Assembly: GCA_032821775.1 (NCBI GenBank) | Contig: JAVLRN010000001.1 | Location: 4,464,001 to 4,528,000, forward strand | Origin: Sanguinoderma infundibulare | Taxonomy: Eukaryota > Basidiomycota > Agaricomycetes > Polyporales > Polyporaceae | DNA length: 64,000 nt | Direction of reading: 5' to 3' | Shown here: positions 25,245 through 33,444 of the stretch, in pieces | How the letters are laid out: every line of letters starts with the position of its first letter | Numbering within the stretch: position 1 is the first letter of the stretch | Notes under the pieces: generated by a model | The model's database searches: none | What the model saw: the letters and a program-made list of their open reading frames with translations, nothing else | Told to the model about the DNA's origin: nothing | Made by a program: the position numbers and the translations under genes

Positions 25245-25912
25245 CGGGGGAAGGAGCGGGATGTAGTTGAACGTTGCCTCGCCACACTTTGCCAGGTTGC
25301 TAATTGTGAGACGCCCACCGGGTCCGTCGGGCCGAATCGCCACTTTTTTTTAGTGGTGCAGCCCGTCCGGTCGGGCACAGTCGTGCCCCTCGGTGGGGTT
25401 ATAGCTCGGTTGTGGGCAGAAGCCCGATACCATGTCGAGGGAAATGCGTTACGCACATCGAGGCCGTGGTCGATAGTGTGGGACTCTCCGGGTCGATGAC
25501 TCGGAGCCGGCGTGATCAGCCAACGCCTGATCTCGCTGCCGGCCCCGGCATACCCACTAAAACTGGGGACGGGCAATGCCTGCAAAGCTGTTGGGACACT
25601 TAGTCAGCAAGCGCTGGAATCGGAATGTGGTACCCCGGGTCGAATGTGGCGCAGCTCGCTAGCTCGCGCGCGCGGGGTCGCGCACGCCGCCTGGACCTCC
25701 TTTGCAATCTCACCTGCCATACGCGTCACAGTGATTATAAGTAGATAGTATCGTAATAATTAGTCCATGGTTTTGGTATCTCCACTGCAGCGAGGAGGGC
25801 TGCAAGCTTCTCAGGCCTGTGTCTTGATTACGTGTGGATATGATAGCGAAGCCCAGGAAATGTATGACGAGTCGAGTATCATAGAGTAAAGGGTCTCGCA
25901 GCGAGAAGACGA
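25245..25912. other. Intergenic region up to the TIR element
   Basis: This holds the HNH promoter side. A minus-strand frame to 25585 has no known motif. A run of T residues lies at about 25344-25351. Confidence 0.4.
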
Positions 25913-25948
25913 CTACATCAGAAATTCCCAGGAGTTCTGAGACGTCTG
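25913..25948 (+). repeat. Left terminal inverted repeat
   Basis: It starts CTACATCAGAAATTCCC and continues GGAGTTCTGAGACGTCTG. About 33 of 36 positions match the reverse complement of 32622-32656. Confidence 0.85.
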
Positions 25949-26194
25949 TCACAGACATTTCAGACGTTTTCAGACAAATTCAGACAAATTCAGACGCATT
26001 TCAGATACGGCAGAGGTCAGAACTCTGGAAAAACCTTCCCAAGCTACTTTGGTGAAAGTACCACTAAAAAGTAGAAATTAGTGCCATTAGAAAAGCATTA
26101 GTGAGTTAGGGAAAATTAGCCTAAGATTCTATAGGTCCCCCTTTTCCTTCGTTCTATTTTAGAAGGATTAGGGATAAAGTAGCACTACTGGCCC

Positions 26195-26235
26195 TAATCC
26201 TTCCCTAACCCTTCCCTAACCCTTCCCTACAGTAG
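26195..26235. repeat. CCCTAACCCTT tandem repeat
   Basis: A short tandem array of an 11-bp unit (ccttccctaac) inside the left subterminal region of the TIR element. It is telomere-like only in containing CCCTAA. Confidence 0.6.
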
Positions 26236-26539
26236 TGCTAATTTTTTCCTAATCCTTCCTAATGGTTGCTAATCCAGGACTACAGGTTCAGTATCTCAGA
26301 GATTTGCTGGGCTGTCCAAAACTTGCGCACACCATAGAAGATAGACATGAAAGTGTATATTGAGCATAACTAATACACACACACTGTAGCTACAGACAAG
26401 CTGACCATCCACTTCCCAGATCTACAATTTTGAATTCACTAAGGTGAAGAGACGCCACTGGCGATGAAGTACATAACAGCCACATTGAGGATCACCTGTA
26501 GAAGTATCAGAATATGTACAGGCTGGCGGACACAGCGAA

Positions 26540-27730
26540 CTCACATCAGAACCACATGAGGCAAGGCAGAGCCACCCCCCCCCCCCCCCCCATGGTGAGG
26601 TAAATCACGTTGATGGACAACCTGACCAGCACAACAGCAGATGCACTGTGAGCGCATTTGCACAGAGTCAGCATGCACAGAAAGAGGTGCCACACAAAGA
26701 GCAGGGTGAGAAGCACGTTGACAAACCTGTGACAAAAACCTTGAGAACCAACCCCAGAAGGCACGAGAGCCAAGGCAAGGAGACATGGGGAGATCCTTGT
26801 GAGTGTTGGGGGCAAGAAGCGGGCTGCATGGAGGCTGAGGAGACGGCGAGGAAGCAGAAGCACAGGTGGCGGCAGAGACGGCAGGCAGCGGAGAAGGTGG
26901 TGGGAGGACGGGGGGTGTCAGGACGGCCATGACCGTCGAGAAGCGCCTTCTTGAGGGCGTCGATCTCCTGGTGCAGGGCCACATTTTCACTCTTCATGCT
27001 GCCGAGTTCGGTGCGGATCGCATCGATGAGCCGGTCACATTCTGCAATATCGCCCTCGAGCGTGGAGATGTACTCTAGAACACGATGTCAGCCACTGAAC
27101 TCTAAATTCGCAGCGTACCAGGACAAAGATGGGGACGAGAGCATTTTTGCGGACAGCGCCTCTGGACAGAAACCATTCGTGGCGCATATCATCAAACCCT
27201 GATCACGGTTTCAACATACGCATACATCGTGCAGCACCAGCTCGAGAGCACGTGAGTGAGACAGGGCAACGGAGAGAGAAACGCACCCTTGCGACGGATG
27301 CACAAGTTGCGCGTGCTAATCTTGTTATGGAGCTGCCGTTTCTCCCTGGAGGACACCTTCTTGTACTCCTTGGGCAACGGCCACCAGTCGTCGGGGTCGC
27401 TCGAGGTCGTGGCGAGTATGTTGGCGGGCGACTCCTTTTCGACGCCGGCAATGCGCTTGATGATGCCGCTGTCGCAACAGTGCCCTTGCGGCTGCCCTTG
27501 CCCTTGCCGCCGACTTTGATGGAACGTGGTCCTCGGGGATCGTTTGCAGGTCGTTGTCGTCGCCTTCTTCCTCCTCGTCAAAGTTGCTCGCCACCTTGGA
27601 GGCTGCGGGGGTGTGCATGAGGTGGGGATCGATGCTGGGAGAGTCCGCCGGGGCAGAGCCGGAGCCGGAGCCGGAAACTGAGGACTTGGGGCTGGACTTG
27701 GGGCGTAGGATGTGAGGAAGCCATAGCGAG
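26540..27730 (-). pseudogene. bZIP transcription factor fragment
   Basis: Minus-strand frames read SDPDDWWPLPKEYKK, SSREKRQLHNKISTRN, IRRK and, after an intron, EYISTLEGDIAECDRLID, SENVALHQEIDALKK and later LPPPSPLPAVSAAT. This is the basic region and zipper of a common Agaricomycete bZIP protein, but basic-region Arg residues are replaced (His in QLHNKIS) and the upstream part changes frame near KSAARARA. It is part of the TIR element. Compared with an intact relative it looks inactive. Confidence 0.75.
26575..26591. repeat. Poly-C run (17 C)
   Basis: Homopolymer of 17 cytosines inside the TIR element. Its length may be misassembled. Confidence 0.9.
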
Positions 27731-27749
27731 AGGGGACAAGCGAGCTACA

Positions 27750-28200
27750 GTCAGTGGGGGTGCCAACTGGCACGGAGGAGGGGAGCTGGCCATGGAAGGC
27801 ATTGAGACAGGCCCGGATGAGGTTCTTGCCCCCTGGTTGGGCGACGAGGGGCTGGCGCTTTGTGGTGGTGAAGGTGTATACGAGACCGGTCTTGGACACG
27901 ACGAGGAGGAGGACTTGAGTGCCGGTGAGGAGGCGAGGGGGGAGAGCGAGGGATGAGGACGGGATGTGCAGGATGGGCATCGACGATCTTCATGTGGCCG
28001 GCCTTGTTGTCCGTCGTTGGGTTGTCCTCGTCGTCGTCATCGTCCTGGCCGCTCTCGCTGGGATCGGGGTCTTGGACGAAGCCATCGTCGTTGGAGATGA
28101 GGCCCTCGCGGATGGTCTTGAGACTCTCACCTCTGGTGTCCACCTCGATGCCAAGACTGATCTCGTCGAATGACTCGAGCAGCTCTCCTACGAAGGTAGC
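27750..28200 (-). pseudogene. MADS-box (Mcm1/SRF-type) factor fragment lacking the DNA-contact half
   Basis: The frames read an acidic leader (GQDDDDDEDNPTTDNKAGH) and, in a different frame, LLTGTQVLLLVVSKTGLVYT and QPGGKNLIRACLNA. The second part is the dimerisation half of an SRF-type MADS box. The basic helix that should come between (the KSRR..TFSKRK..GIMKKA region) is missing. The fragment runs directly into bZIP-derived sequence on the same strand, so the two were joined inside the element. Confidence 0.75.
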
Positions 28201-28533
28201 GGGAGCGACCACGTGAAGTTGAAGCTCGGGGCGCAGCAGGGATGGTGAAGATGGAGGTTGCTGAATGGGTAGGTGAGGAGCACGAGGAGAGATGCGACGT
28301 GGCAAGTGAAGGGGGAGGCCGAAGTCTTAGACACTCGATTCAGTGGCACGTCGCCGAATCAAGCGTCTAAGACTGATGCTAGTCCTTGCCCATCCACTCG
28401 TCCGTTATTCGTCCACTCGTTCTCGTCCATCTGCTTGCGCATCGTGGGGAGGACCCACGGGAGGGAATTCTCGACAAGCCTCGTGCCCTTCATATTCGTT
28501 TCCCTCCTCCGCCCTTTGACATCCCCGCCCGCC

Positions 28534-28870
28534 ATGTCGGCAGACCTCTATCCTCAGTCTGCCTACGCCTCCCGCCCATCCTATCCCGCCCGCGCAGTCC
28601 AGCCATACTCGCTCTCCACTCCCTCCTCCGTCGTCTACCTGCCCCAGCTCCTTCCCTCTCAGCAGTCCATCCCGGAGGGCCAGTCCGCCGACGCGTCCTC
28701 CTAGCCCTCCCCTCGCCCAAGCAGGACGACGCCTCTCCAACAAATTCAGATGACGTGCCACAGCAGCAACCCCCGAAGCCACAAGCTATGTTCCTCACAA
28801 AGCTCTATGTGTACGTCCGCCCGACGCGTCTCTTCCTTGCACCGTCGTGCTAATGACGTGTTCAGCCTCC
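28534..28870 (+). pseudogene. HSF-like transcription factor N-terminal fragment
   Basis: It starts MSADLYPQSAYASRPSYPAR and, after a frameshift, gives PPKPQAMFLTKLYV. The latter resembles the first strand of an HSF-type DNA-binding domain (KPQATFLTKLYALLE in relatives). The rest of the domain is missing. Confidence 0.5.
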
Positions 28871-29015
28871 TCGACGAGCTGCGGGGCAGCCGCTCCTCGG
28901 TGCTTGGCCTGGCGACGTTGTCTTCCCTGCCTTCGCCAACAGGCTCTGAGCCCTCGCTTGTGCACCACAGCTGTCTCGCTCGCAAGCTACCTTCGCTCCC
29001 TACTCCAAGTGCGGC

Positions 29016-29530
29016 ATGTCTCTTCGGTTCCAGTCGCTCTGCCTCCTCTCTCTCTTGGTCGGGGCTGCCCTCGCGGCCCCAATGGCGGTCGAGAAACGCT
29101 TGTCTCCGCAGGTGCAACTTGATGATGGAACTTTCATGGGCACTTCGGATGGCACGACGACCCAGTTCCTAGGCATTCCGTTCGCAAAGCCACCGTACGT
29201 CGTTTCCTACTCTTCTCGCATGCTTTCATCACGCCCTCATCCTTTCGCATAGGACCGGAAACCTTCGGTTCAGTCTGCCGGTGCTTGTCAATGCATACAA
29301 TGGGACCTATACCGCGACAAGTTTTGGTCCCGCATGTCCGCAGCAAGTGTTCGCCTTTCCAGGGATCCCTGGCCTGGCGGGGGACGTGCTCGACTTCCTC
29401 GTGAATGATATTTATGACCTGATCACTCCCTCATCTGAGGATTGTGAGTTCACCATGGTTCGGCTGTGCTGCCTCTCGCTCTGACATCTTTGGCTTTGGA
29501 AGGTCTCTCGCTGAACATCATCGTGCCGGC
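29016..29530 (+). pseudogene. Carboxylesterase type B N-terminal fragment
   Basis: MSLRFQSLCLLSLLVGAALA is a clear signal peptide. After it come TFMGTSDGTTTQFLGIPFAK, an apparent intron (about 29196-29250), then TSFGPACPQQ and, after a second intron, EDCLSLNIIVPAGM, the conserved EDCL motif of secreted esterases and lipases. The catalytic GESAG region and everything beyond are absent. Confidence 0.75.
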
Positions 29531-29619
29531 CGGCATGTTGTGTACCTCCTCGCCTTCCTAAGCCATGCAAGAACAACCCGGAGGTCCCCCAGATCCCCCC
29601 ACTGCGTTCAGCCATCGGT

Positions 29620-30108
29620 ATGGGTCCCGTCCCCTATTCTATACCTGCAGGTGATTTATCACCATACAAAGGTGGTCGTGCACACGGGTTTTCTGCCCCT
29701 GGATCCTTCACACCGCTCAACCAACCTGGTGCTGCTGGCTGGGGTGCTAGCTACCCCTGGTCTACTCTGCCATGGCTGTACTCTGAGCACCCATCTCAAC
29801 GTCTGTCAACATCTCTCCACCCTGCAGAGGACCACACAGGTGCGGGCGGGATCCCTCATGTGCGCACCCTGATCCAGCTCCCTTCCGTTGACAACTACAA
29901 CTTTAACCCCGCACAGGGCAACTTTGCTTACGCGGTCAGCGAACAGAGCCGAAACATTGGCATGTACGGTGTTCCTGTGCGTCCCTCAATGAGCATGTCG
30001 TTGTTGAGTGGGCCTCTGCCACACTGTGCTTGTTCTCCCTCTCCCCTTGCCTCGCAGCATGGGCATAGAAGTCTCAGCTCGCATTCTTGCTTACCTCAAT
30101 ATCTGTAG
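29620..30108 (+). pseudogene. Unidentified low-complexity fragment
   Basis: A frame of 162 codons rich in Pro, Ser and Gly (SFTPLNQPGAAGWGASYPW). It resembles the disordered tail of a fungal transcription factor but has no domain. As it lies within the TIR element, a captured fragment is the simplest reading. Confidence 0.35.
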
Positions 30109-31039
30109 TTTATGCATGTTGTAGTGCATGTTTGTCGCTGTCATTACATAGTGTGGCATATAATGACATTCCTTGCTGTTGTTTGTGCTGTGAATGATGC
30201 AGAATGTGATGTCAAAGCACCCAATCATACAAGAATGTCTTGATTATCCCAATACATGAAAATAGGTTTAAAGTAGTGCAAAAGTAGTACTAATTAGTAC
30301 AACTGCTGTTCCTGTCCATCTAATAGTGCATATCATTACTATTCTAAAGATCCCTCTGTATATTAGTCCAAATTAGATGCAATTAGTTCAAATTAGTTCA
30401 AATTAGATTGGCAATACCTCTATTAGGTCATAGTTGTAGTGAATACATCAAATTAGCTTGGGAGGGTTTTCCTGATGTCAAGTCAGAACTGTTTTTTTGC
30501 TATTCAGAGGTTTTCGCCATGGGACTGCCAGACCTTTCAGACTGTCAGACATTTCAGACGTATGGACGGGAGGCGCGGGCTGCCATATGCGCATGTGTCA
30601 CTTGCTGATGGAAGCCTGGTATATAGTGTGGCGATCTAGGTTATACCATACAGGTGTCATCAACTGGGGCAGGCGGGGAACTGCTGCGCTCATGCCAGGC
30701 CGGCTCATCGTAGCAATGTGCAAACGGGTGTGATATATGCAGCAAGAGATTATACACAAGTGAGAAACGAGATGACAACAATGACACCACCATGATCAAT
30801 GTCCATAGTATCCATCATTGCCTAATCCATGCTCACGAATCACACGAGCGCGGCGTTGTTGAAGATGAGCAGGTTTGGCGAACCTGATGGGAGCTCAGTG
30901 AACACACTCTTGGTCGCAAGTGCGAGGAGCACTTTTTAAGCTATGTGGGCATGAGTGTTGGGTAGGGAGCAGGACATGAAGGACTCCTGGATAAGCTTGG
31001 GCGGGGGAAGGAAAGTCGCGACCCATGACGGCATCGCCA

Positions 31040-31310
31040 ACTACGCGAACAACACGTAAGCATTCGAGAGCGATGACGGTGAGAAGTAGACCTTCTCTGA
31101 CACGAGGTCAAGTGCAAGAGCGGGGTTGAACGTCATAGATGGGTAGAGCAAAAGGAGGTACGTGAGCAGGCCGGCGGTGTGGGGCGAGGCCATTGAGGTA
31201 CTGGACATAGTCGTGATCGACATTGCTCCCCATGTATGTCAAGAGGATGTTCAGGCCGGGCGCAAAGACGTCCATGCACGAGCTGCGGTTCATATAATAC
31301 ATGTGTGAGA
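31040..31310 (-). pseudogene. Subtilase (S8) catalytic-Ser fragment
   Basis: The frames read SSCMDVFAPGLNILLTYMGS and SSTSMASPHTAGLLTYLLLL. The second is the GTSMASPH signature around the catalytic serine of proteinase K-like subtilases. The Asp and His parts of the triad and the prodomain are absent. The two pieces lie in different frames. Confidence 0.75.
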
Positions 31311-31459
31311 GAAGAGATAGTGCGGGGGAGGCGAGTCTTGCGGAGGAGAATGGGGTGCGCGGGGGGAGGATGCAGGGAGTTAGACTGAAAACTTACCAAA
31401 TAGAGCCCGAAAAACTATCCCATATCTGCCTCCTGCGGTCCTGGGGTTCCTAGAGCAGA

Positions 31460-32450
31460 AGAGAGATGTTAGTAGGCCACCGCGGATCCCAACCGCCTTG
31501 GCAACGCGTCGCTCTCCACGTTCAATTTCTTCCCACTGTCCTTCTCTGGAAGTGGCACCGCAGGCTTCTGCACGTCGAGCTGCACGACCATGCACTCACA
31601 ATAAAGCCCGCCAGGCTTCAATACCTCGATGTTCGCGATCCTCATCGGCCGGCGCGCTTCACCACCCTGCCCTTGCAAAGGGTCTAATCCTTCAACATCG
31701 GCATCAGCAGATGCTGCCTGGGCTTGGGCCTTCCGCGCCTCCTCATCCACCGCGGCGTCCATCTTGAGCTGTGTGTGCTTTAGCAGGGTGGGCAGGAACA
31801 GACAGTGCAGCACGCTCTGCAGCGCTGATTCGGATGGCTTCGTGAACAGCAGCAGCAGCAAGAACAAGACCATGTACGCGAGCGACCACCTGCGTTCGCT
31901 GGTTCCCAGGAAGGGTGCAACCGTGTCGCGGCGGCTGATGCCGGGGCAGGCAGAGACAGCGAGGATGTTCGAGGGGTGCGGGAGTGGAGGTTTGTCGGTC
32001 TTTTCAGCCTTGCAGTTCGGCAGGGAGTCGAGGATGCGCTGGAGGTGGCAAGTGATGATGGTCGTACGGAGCGAGCGGTGGCCCTAGGTGATGACAGGCG
32101 GCTGCGGGGAGGGCGGCAACGTCGGGGTAGACGCGAGGCAGACGGGGAACATCGAGCGCGCAGGTTGACGATGGAGATAACACGGATGTCCCGCTCAACT
32201 GGTGCGACGAGGAATGCTGGGAGGAGGAATGTTGTGATGAGGAACGACGCGAGCGACGCGGACTCGCGCTGCTCCGATTCATGCTGTTCCTTGTCTTTGC
32301 GTGCGGCACCGCCGAAGAACCAGATGCATCCCGGAGGTTATCGGGGATGTCGTCTTGGGGGTATTGAGAAGCGCTAGCGTCGACTAGGACACAAGGAAGA
32401 GGGAGGCGGAAAGTGTTAGGGCTGGAGGAGAAAGCAGGAGGCAAGAGCAA
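31460..32450 (-). pseudogene. Fragment of an unidentified membrane-associated protein
   Basis: A frame reads MVLFLLLLLFTKPSESALQS and FLPTLLKHTQLKMDAAVDEE, ending ECMVVQLDVQKPAVPLPEKD. It looks like the C-terminal part of a fungal short-chain dehydrogenase-like membrane protein (tentative). A Ser-rich stretch in a neighbouring frame (about 32110-32450) may be an N-terminal part. Confidence 0.35.
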
Positions 32451-32621
32451 AGTGGTGGGAGGCGGGTTGGCGCTACCGGCCTGGGACCGGTCTGGACCCC
32501 TGGCGCTGACTGCTGACGGTGCTCTGGCGCCTTTTCCGTCAGCACCGTCAAGAGAACACGTCTGAACATCTGATGTATCTGACAGTATCTGAACCTCTGA
32601 CTTAGCCGTGGTCAGATGATT

Positions 32622-32656
32622 CAGACGTTCAGAACTCCGGGGAATTACTGATGTAG
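32622..32656 (-). repeat. Right terminal inverted repeat
   Basis: Its reverse complement starts CTACATCAGTAATTCCCC and continues GGAGTTCTGAACGTCTG, matching the left end. Confidence 0.85.
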
Positions 32657-33302
32657 GACATGGACCAGCGGGGCACCGGCAGGACCAGAATAGAACAAGG
32701 TGAATACCAGCGGTATTGTAATGAAAGAATTCCTTGAGGCTTACCTGCTCAACAGACACTCGTTCCAACTATTCAGAGGGGCAACAGAGCAGGGGAAGCC
32801 GTTTCGATGGCGCGGCGGAGGGGACCAGATGGAGGGAGACGGCGTGCATGTGACTGGTGTCATCCCCCGCGCGCAGGCTCGCGTATCCTGCGCGAGCCTC
32901 ATTGTGTGCGCGAAAAACATGCCTTCTCCTCTCCCTCTATTCGTGGTGAAATGTTTCGCATTTGGTGTAATATTTCGAGTTCTAGTATTCCCTCACAAAG
33001 TCGAAGCGGTCTTGCAAGCCGCGCTGCTGGAAAGCCACGACCATTACTCAACCCTGCACTCAAAGTCTCGGATTTCCGAAATTTTTTCTGCGCGAATATT
33101 AGATCTACTCTGTGGTTTGCCAGAGCACTATTTATCATAACGTGAAGAGGACACATCAAGCTACAATTTTTCGTGCACAGAAACGACCACTTTATGTGAG
33201 CGCCTCCAGGGATTACAAACATCGACAAACACGATTTGCCTCGCGGGCGTTGCCCGTCCTCACTAAAACCCCCGGCAATCCAATCTGGCGGGACATCAGC
33301 AA
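32657..33302. other. No recognisable gene
   Basis: Open frames on both strands lack motifs. A 247-codon minus-strand frame (32899-33642) runs straight through the palindrome at 33.3 kb and is probably spurious. Confidence 0.45.
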
Positions 33303-33444
33303 CGCGAGCCATGGATAGACCAGCCATCAATCCATAGAATTCCCGGGCCAGGCTGGGGTATCCATACCCTTTGCCTCGGGTATGGATACCCCAGCCTGGC
33401 CCGGGAATTCTATGGATTGATGGCCGGTCTATCCATGGCTCGCG
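33303..33444. repeat. Near-perfect palindrome, ~66 bp arms
   Basis: The left arm 33303-33369 and right arm 33378-33444 are inverted copies with about one mismatch (ccagcc versus ccggcc in the reverse complement) and a loop of about 8-10 bases. Each arm contains CCATGGATAGACC, GAATTCCCGGG and CAGGCTGGGGTATCC. It would fold into a very stable hairpin. Confidence 0.95.

Follow-up and report, generated by a model that had tools for sequence, protein, structure and literature searches.

A 64,000-nucleotide stretch of the Sanguinoderma infundibulare genome (contig JAVLRN010000001.1, positions 4,464,001 to 4,528,000; hereafter, the window) contains two transposons at 25916-32653, an inner element interrupting an outer one. 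Both are very probably non-autonomous DNA transposons of the Plavaka type, each furnished with pieces copied from host genes. The outer element measures 2283 bp (2.28 kb) without its insert; the inner, 4455 bp. A sequence-only reading of the same DNA had proposed a single 6.7-kb non-autonomous, gene-capturing transposon bounded by terminal inverted repeats (TIRs), with all of the gene pieces inside it. Gene capture, TIRs, and the non-autonomous character stand; the single element does not, and the cargo is divided: bZIP, MADS, HSF, and esterase pieces lie in the inner element, subtilase in the outer.

Copies and donor genes were sought throughout the genome (48.9 Mb, 87 contigs), as that reading had recommended. 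It had also named two outcomes contrary to gene capture: ends found nowhere else, and an interior collinear with an ancestral gene cluster. Neither was obtained. The ends recur in other copies, and a relative of the outer element that carries a transposase has the same ends; the pieces trace to unrelated loci on other contigs. Below, L and C numbers designate individual loci and contigs.

One element within another

Positions 1-110 of the outer element align to positions 1-110 of a 2279-bp copy, L017; the alignment resumes at window position 30480, from L017-copy position 106. The 4455 bp between (26023-30477, plus strand), together with two bases TC, are absent from the corresponding site in L017, in L018, and in the longer relative L015. 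This stretch begins with CTCTGGAAAAACC and finishes with GGTTTTCCTGATG; its ends are CTCTGG and CCTGATG. Since L017 and L018 lack 26023-30479, a stretch that has inverted ends of its own and recurs in many copies, the single 6.7-kb element is refuted.

Could L017 and L018 instead be internal-deletion derivatives of one 6.7-kb gene-capturing element? The outer TIRs and a TA duplication do enclose the whole 6.7 kb. Against this, inverted ends of its own mark the borders of the 4455-bp insert, and L015 also is continuous at the insert site. Moreover, an inner copy with the same cargo and 99.06% identity (L041, contig C14) is flanked by TG on either side and by no outer sequence. Because L041 stands alone, this explanation is already refuted, and we regard it as extremely improbable.

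The outer element

The inverted ends of the outer element (arms 25913-25940 and 32629-32656) extend for 28 nt and are 93% complementary. A pattern fitted to both arms matches twice within the window and not once in 100 shuffles, bearing out the inverted termini first described. Alignment to other copies sets the borders more narrowly: CATCAG at 25916 and CTGATG at 32653. The TIRs thus delimited occupy 25916-25940 (plus strand) and 32629-32653 (minus strand). Comparison of flanks among outer-family copies identifies the target-site duplication (TSD) as TA, at 25914-25915 and 32654-32655. Alignment to copies likewise defines the two parts that the inner element separates, both on the plus strand: the left (25916-26022), with TCAGAC-type subterminal repeats; and the right (30480-32653), 98.9% identical to L017 and 97.7% to L018.

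This family is dispersed. The outer left end matches 39 places in the genome, the right end 8; the TIR pattern, allowing up to three mismatches, matches 86 places, versus 2 for the reversed control. Matching 2-bp flanks were found in 19 of the 22 two-ended copies examined and not in the remaining 3. Size classes include miniature inverted-repeat transposable elements (MITEs) of about 0.49 kb and the sister copies L017 and L018 (2.27-2.28 kb), each with its own matching 2-bp flanks. A pair of 9944-bp elements, L013 with L014 and L015 with L016, are 99.7% alike and share the ends of the window element. A 13.65-kb relative (L020 with L021) has a degenerate right end.

The 9.94-kb pair holds exons that the window element lacks. 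Plavaka transposase (PF18759) is matched by exons in both members (C3:4202789-4204204 and C4:1177943-1179358), with an E value of 6.8e-20 for one L015 frame. No PF18759 match occurs inside the window element, consistent with the earlier statement that no transposase is visible there. Rfam gave no match within 25900-32700. According to the available portions of a 2025 paper (PMC12730594), PlavakaB elements of Agaricomycotina have CATCA..TGATG ends and TSDs of 2 or 3 bp. The outer element has such termini (CATCAG..CTGATG), a 2-bp duplication (TA/TA), and ends in common with PF18759 elements. Judged from these characters, it fits a non-autonomous PlavakaB element.

Two outer-family loci have unusual interiors. 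At L022 (C4:413048-416602), MITE ends flank a near-perfect palindrome, 94% self-inverted over 2118 nt. At L019 (C7:3187995-3197381), 8.8 kb separates MITE-like ends that have TA on each side; about 8.3 kb of other sequence appears to interrupt the element.

The inner family: constant ends, mosaic interiors

Comparison of copies delimits two ends common to the inner family, on the plus strand: 26023-26394 on the left, and 30013-30477, terminating in CCTGATG, on the right. With 40 of 83 candidates scored, the left-end query returned at least 77 match rows, some copies accounting for several; with 40 of 68 scored, the right-end query returned at least 40. The end motif occurs without mismatch at 112 places in the genome, versus 0 for the reversed control. 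Among the matches listed (100 of the 112 places, with neighbours up to 20 kb apart) are 34 end pairs, 31 of which are spaced 2.6-5.1 kb.

The window copy was compared with 20 more, picked from the tops of the hit lists. The window copy has end sequence in common with each of the 20, about 0.2-0.5 kb per side, and 16 of the 21 have matching 2-bp flanks. Every copy has the TGATG right end (an AGATG-type variant in L052). The interiors are mosaics that overlap partially and in differing combinations. Exceptions, pairs whose interiors are largely the same, are the window copy and L041, L056 and L057, and L046 and L052. In the window, two additional bases (TC, 30478-30479) stand between the inner right end and the expected AA duplication.

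Captured gene pieces and their donors

The window pieces derive from seven donor loci elsewhere in the genome, on contigs C2, C3, C7, C9, and C11; those checked belong to families conserved in other mushrooms. (For one donor gene, the closest named homologues are from Ganoderma and Dichomitus, at 81-83% identity.) All assignments rest on donor comparison. Five of the genes had been named from the window alone and are confirmed by their donors in the same genome, as are the introns and the presence of pieces on both strands; a ketoreductase-domain gene and an unnamed conserved gene had been overlooked.

Minus-strand pieces come first in the inner element: bZIP (26751-27727, 88.4% to L069); MADS-box sequence from after the core (27755-27930, 89.2% to L072) and from before it (27985-28097, 88.5% to L072); and the unnamed gene (28092-28284, 77% to L074). 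Plus-strand pieces follow: HSF piece 1 (28468-28874, 91.4% to L065); carboxylesterase (28875-29535, 95.9% to L064, with 661 aligned bases ungapped); HSF piece 2 (29542-29771, 93.5% to L065); and HSF piece 3 (29770-30008, 83.7% to L065). The outer element carries the 3' end of a subtilase gene (30698-31291, 86.7% to L067) and a ketoreductase-domain piece (31529-32331, 89.1% to L066), both on the minus strand. Ends and cargo together cover 3825 of the 4455 bp of the inner element; cargo accounts for 1397 of the 2283 bp of the outer.

Four donors are named by their Pfam matches: MADS (PF00319, 1.4e-7), HSF (PF00447, 3.8e-11), carboxylesterase (PF00135, 5.6e-9), and subtilase (PF00082, 4.2e-41). 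Homologues of the bZIP donor carry PF00170/PF07716. The ketoreductase-domain donor gave no Pfam match and is named from homologues; the unnamed conserved donor might conceivably be COG5. Four window open reading frames (ORFs) in the bZIP, MADS, and HSF pieces have no Pfam match; here too the donors supply the names.

Intron sequence is retained in the pieces, so the template of the copying was DNA, not mRNA. The joints between them are of three kinds: blunt (28874/28875); with a 6-bp filler, between the carboxylesterase and HSF pieces (29536-29541); and with a 2-bp overlap (29770-29771). These suggest error-prone end joining or template switching during repair within the element. The window piece retains the bZIP basic region. 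Both the MADS core (gap 27931-27984) and the HSF DNA-binding core (at 29536-29541) are lost, with the flanking gene parts retained.

Across the 21 inner elements (BLASTN, E value of 1e-6 or better), HSF sequence is found in 15, MADS in 10 (two through short matches only), bZIP in 5, and carboxylesterase in 2. The 661-bp carboxylesterase stretch was found by the genome search only in the window, in L041, and in the donor. A Pfam scan of 27 of the 184 representative ORFs of inner-family elements revealed further cargo: in L046 the C-terminal domain of a malate dehydrogenase (2.6e-23), in L051 a sugar transporter (2.1e-5), and in L057 ribosomal protein L1 (2.9e-8). The other 24 of the 27 had no match above the cut-off; weak matches below it (L051:3210-3881 and L042:2734-3204) were set aside. 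Several inner elements contain matches to the malate dehydrogenase stretch, whose likely donor, by similarity, is C3:885779-886269 (86%), the best match away from the listed inner ends; weaker or shorter alternatives are C5:2466062-2466601 and C4:509354-509469. A stretch in L042 and L060, for which Pfam gave nothing, may be histone-H2A-like.

CpG decay and the direction of copying

Compared with six donors over 4192 sites, the window pieces differ by 215 C>T/G>A changes, 46 T>C/A>G changes, and 85 transversions. The C>T/G>A changes fall at 168 of 942 CpG positions versus 47 of 1708 other C/G positions. Copies of the same element differ in the same manner. Of the 40 transitions that separate the window from L041, 36 are CpG-type, and transversions are absent. 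The outer part shows 23 transitions relative to L017, 20 of them CpG-type, plus 1 transversion; relative to L018 it shows 45 transitions, 35 of them CpG-type, and 5 transversions. Over the stretch compared, the members of the 9.94-kb pair are distinguished by 26 transitions, of which 25 are CpG-type, and 2 transversions. Observed/expected CpG rises from 0.75 in the inner element through 0.90 in the right part of the outer to 1.02-1.10 in the flanking sequence.

Most of the differences represent CpG decay in the elements, which makes the host genes the source and the element pieces the copies. A CpG mutation signature is described for basidiomycete transposable elements in the available portions of PMC4352252, and the pattern here would be the mark expected of methylated CpG in elements. 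The carboxylesterase piece has C>T/G>A changes at only 19 of 144 CpG and 1 of 260 other positions, and by this CpG clock appears as the youngest capture.

The direction of decay also bears on whether host genes once clustered at this place left the pieces behind, or whether elements gave rise to the host genes. No point in favour of either was found. With the decay on the element side, donors scattered over five contigs, and the donors checked belonging to conserved mushroom families, the probability of such an origin is negligible.

Plavaka as the probable engine

What moves the inner family? Two loci combine its right end with Plavaka transposase exons. At L075, Plavaka transposase frames come first; next is a remnant of HSF, collinear with its host counterpart, and the inner right end follows. 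These three components recur in L068 with L070, where HSF is represented by only the first part of the gene. On contig C16, HSF-like DNA lies about 2 kb from a PF18759 match. HSF identity tables and small trees, made for three segments, have a star-like form in which the host gene sits close to the centre and several branches are weakly supported. Star-like identities fit one old uptake followed by decay; repeated independent HSF capture is not shown by these identities and trees.

In the simplest history, a Plavaka ancestor that carried HSF lost its transposase and afterwards took up further pieces. The inner family would have arisen from a Plavaka lineage that took up the HSF gene beside its transposase. 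This lineage would then have lost the transposase and gained further pieces through error-prone repair inside the element, the carboxylesterase piece probably last. Both window elements would be mobilised in trans by a Plavaka transposase. The copies may be methylated and decaying through CpG deamination, in which case most of the cargo would be under erasure rather than in use.

Several observations weigh against this history. The inner left end is CTCTGG in 20 of the 21 copies and CACTGG in L049, not the CATCA of PlavakaB. Five of the 21 copies, a set not chosen at random, fail the 2-bp flank test. The window copy is one of the five, lacking a clean duplication: its left flank is AA, its right flank TC and then AA. 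No inner left end was found in L068, L070, L071, or L075. A two-ended inner-family element with a transposase was not met among the copies read, and no PF18759 match is among those listed in three long inner candidates of about 15 kb, at C14:367535-382991, C4:3182458-3197605, and C4:2673914-2689661. Finally, the Plavaka transposase frames are interrupted by stops or introns, so that the elements holding them are at best candidates for autonomy.

The differing left end, the five copies without 2-bp duplications, and the want of a complete inner element with a Plavaka gene among those read would agree with another possibility: that a transposase of a different superfamily moves the inner family, and that Plavaka and HSF sequences meet at L075 and L068 by coincidence or through nested insertions. 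Set against this are the TGATG right end, the 2-bp duplications of the 16 other copies, the closeness of the inner right-end region to Plavaka exons at two separate loci, and the neighbouring HSF-like DNA and PF18759 match on C16. Movement by another superfamily seems unlikely. Mobilisation by Plavaka remains the preferred reading for both elements; the inner family resembles PlavakaB (PMC12730594, available portions) in its TGATG right end and in the 2-bp TSD of most copies examined, though not of the window copy.

Fused frames

MADS sequence does adjoin bZIP sequence on one strand (minus), as first noticed; the working fused transcription factor imagined from it finds no such support, for the window piece lacks the MADS core and its bZIP frame is shifted. 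In favour of fused frames in use, as working regulators under selection, stands L045, where one open frame of 373 amino acids runs from the C-terminal part of MADS into bZIP sequence read in its host frame. The window frame at 27192-27989 (minus) also is open, but shifted within its bZIP part. The L041 bZIP frame is shifted as well, and stops interrupt L043 and L044. Even in L045, three basic-region arginines have become cysteine, and the decay is of the CpG type. A functional MADS-bZIP fusion thus appears unlikely from the reading frames, and use of this or any other chimera under selection would be very surprising.

A more elaborate scenario, for which we hold out little expectation, is that a Plavaka lineage profited from its HSF gene, and that derivatives added MADS and bZIP pieces. 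The methylated pieces might then feed back on host regulators (for example, through small RNAs), or might yield fused regulators such as the L045 frame.

Relation to known systems

Pack-CACTA and Pack-MULE elements of plants are non-autonomous Class II elements with TIRs and TSDs, carrying multiplied host coding pieces from several loci (PMC8903248, available portions). The outer element is likewise non-autonomous, TIR-bounded, and flanked by a TSD; so are 16 of the 21 inner copies, the window copy being without a clean TSD. Host coding pieces with donors elsewhere are present (seven loci), and element and cargo have been multiplied together: L041 for the inner element and L017 and L018 for the outer all have matching 2-bp flanks of their own. 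These elements work like plant Pack-TYPE elements. They differ from those of PMC8903248 in their fungal host, in having Plavaka rather than a plant superfamily as the probable engine, in CpG-type decay, and in the recurrence of HSF sequence both in the inner family and beside a transposase.

Compared with PlavakaB as presented in PMC12730594, host gene pieces here replace the transposase and the inner left end differs. Some Plavaka families carry a TET/JBP gene as passenger, according to the same source; the passenger described in its available portions is of that kind rather than a mosaic of host gene fragments. Among fungal precedents, a hAT element of Pyrenophora tritici-repentis transduplicates a histone H3-like gene and was called the first such case in fungi (PMC3538342). 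This too is a fungal DNA transposon multiplying a host-like gene between TIRs, but in an ascomycete, and what it multiplies is a single gene in near-identical copies, not a family of mosaics built from fragments. In Rhizophagus, high-copy genes adjoin Mutator-like elements (PMC8647823). In the available portions of the open-licence Plavaka papers (including PMC12730594, PMC9674265, PMC8290104, and PMC8955403), no report of gene-capturing non-autonomous Plavaka elements was found; nor did the searches of open-licence literature yield one of Plavaka as a Pack-TYPE engine or of such families in mushrooms. In PMC10853768, the term Pack-TYPE occurs in the reference list only.

Pack-type shuffling, best documented in plants, is thus indicated at family scale in a mushroom, with a different lineage of transposase. 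For each capture, CpG decay shows which way the copying went and serves as an approximate clock, making capture order readable within one genome. Gene finders may call the chimeras transcription-factor genes, inflating polypore gene families.

Helitrons have neither TIRs nor target duplications, and as a class are ruled out here by the presence of both. Mushroom transposons bearing captured host genes are nevertheless familiar from the Helitrons of Pleurotus ostreatus (PMC4289320, available portions), from which the present elements differ by their TIRs and target duplications. KDZ and hAT are ruled out by the 2-bp duplications, the ends, and PF18759; target duplications are 8 bp for Zisupton, 7 bp for Kyakuja, and usually 8 bp for hAT (PMC12730594).

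Two further features were noted. About 1 kb of the inner-family locus L044 (3612-4605) is 94% identical to L071 (1325-2317), some 90 kb away on the same contig. Beyond the outer element, window positions 33303-33444 form a foldback repeat: a 67-nt near-perfect hairpin, 99% complementary, with 8 nt between its arms and about ten dispersed relatives in the genome.

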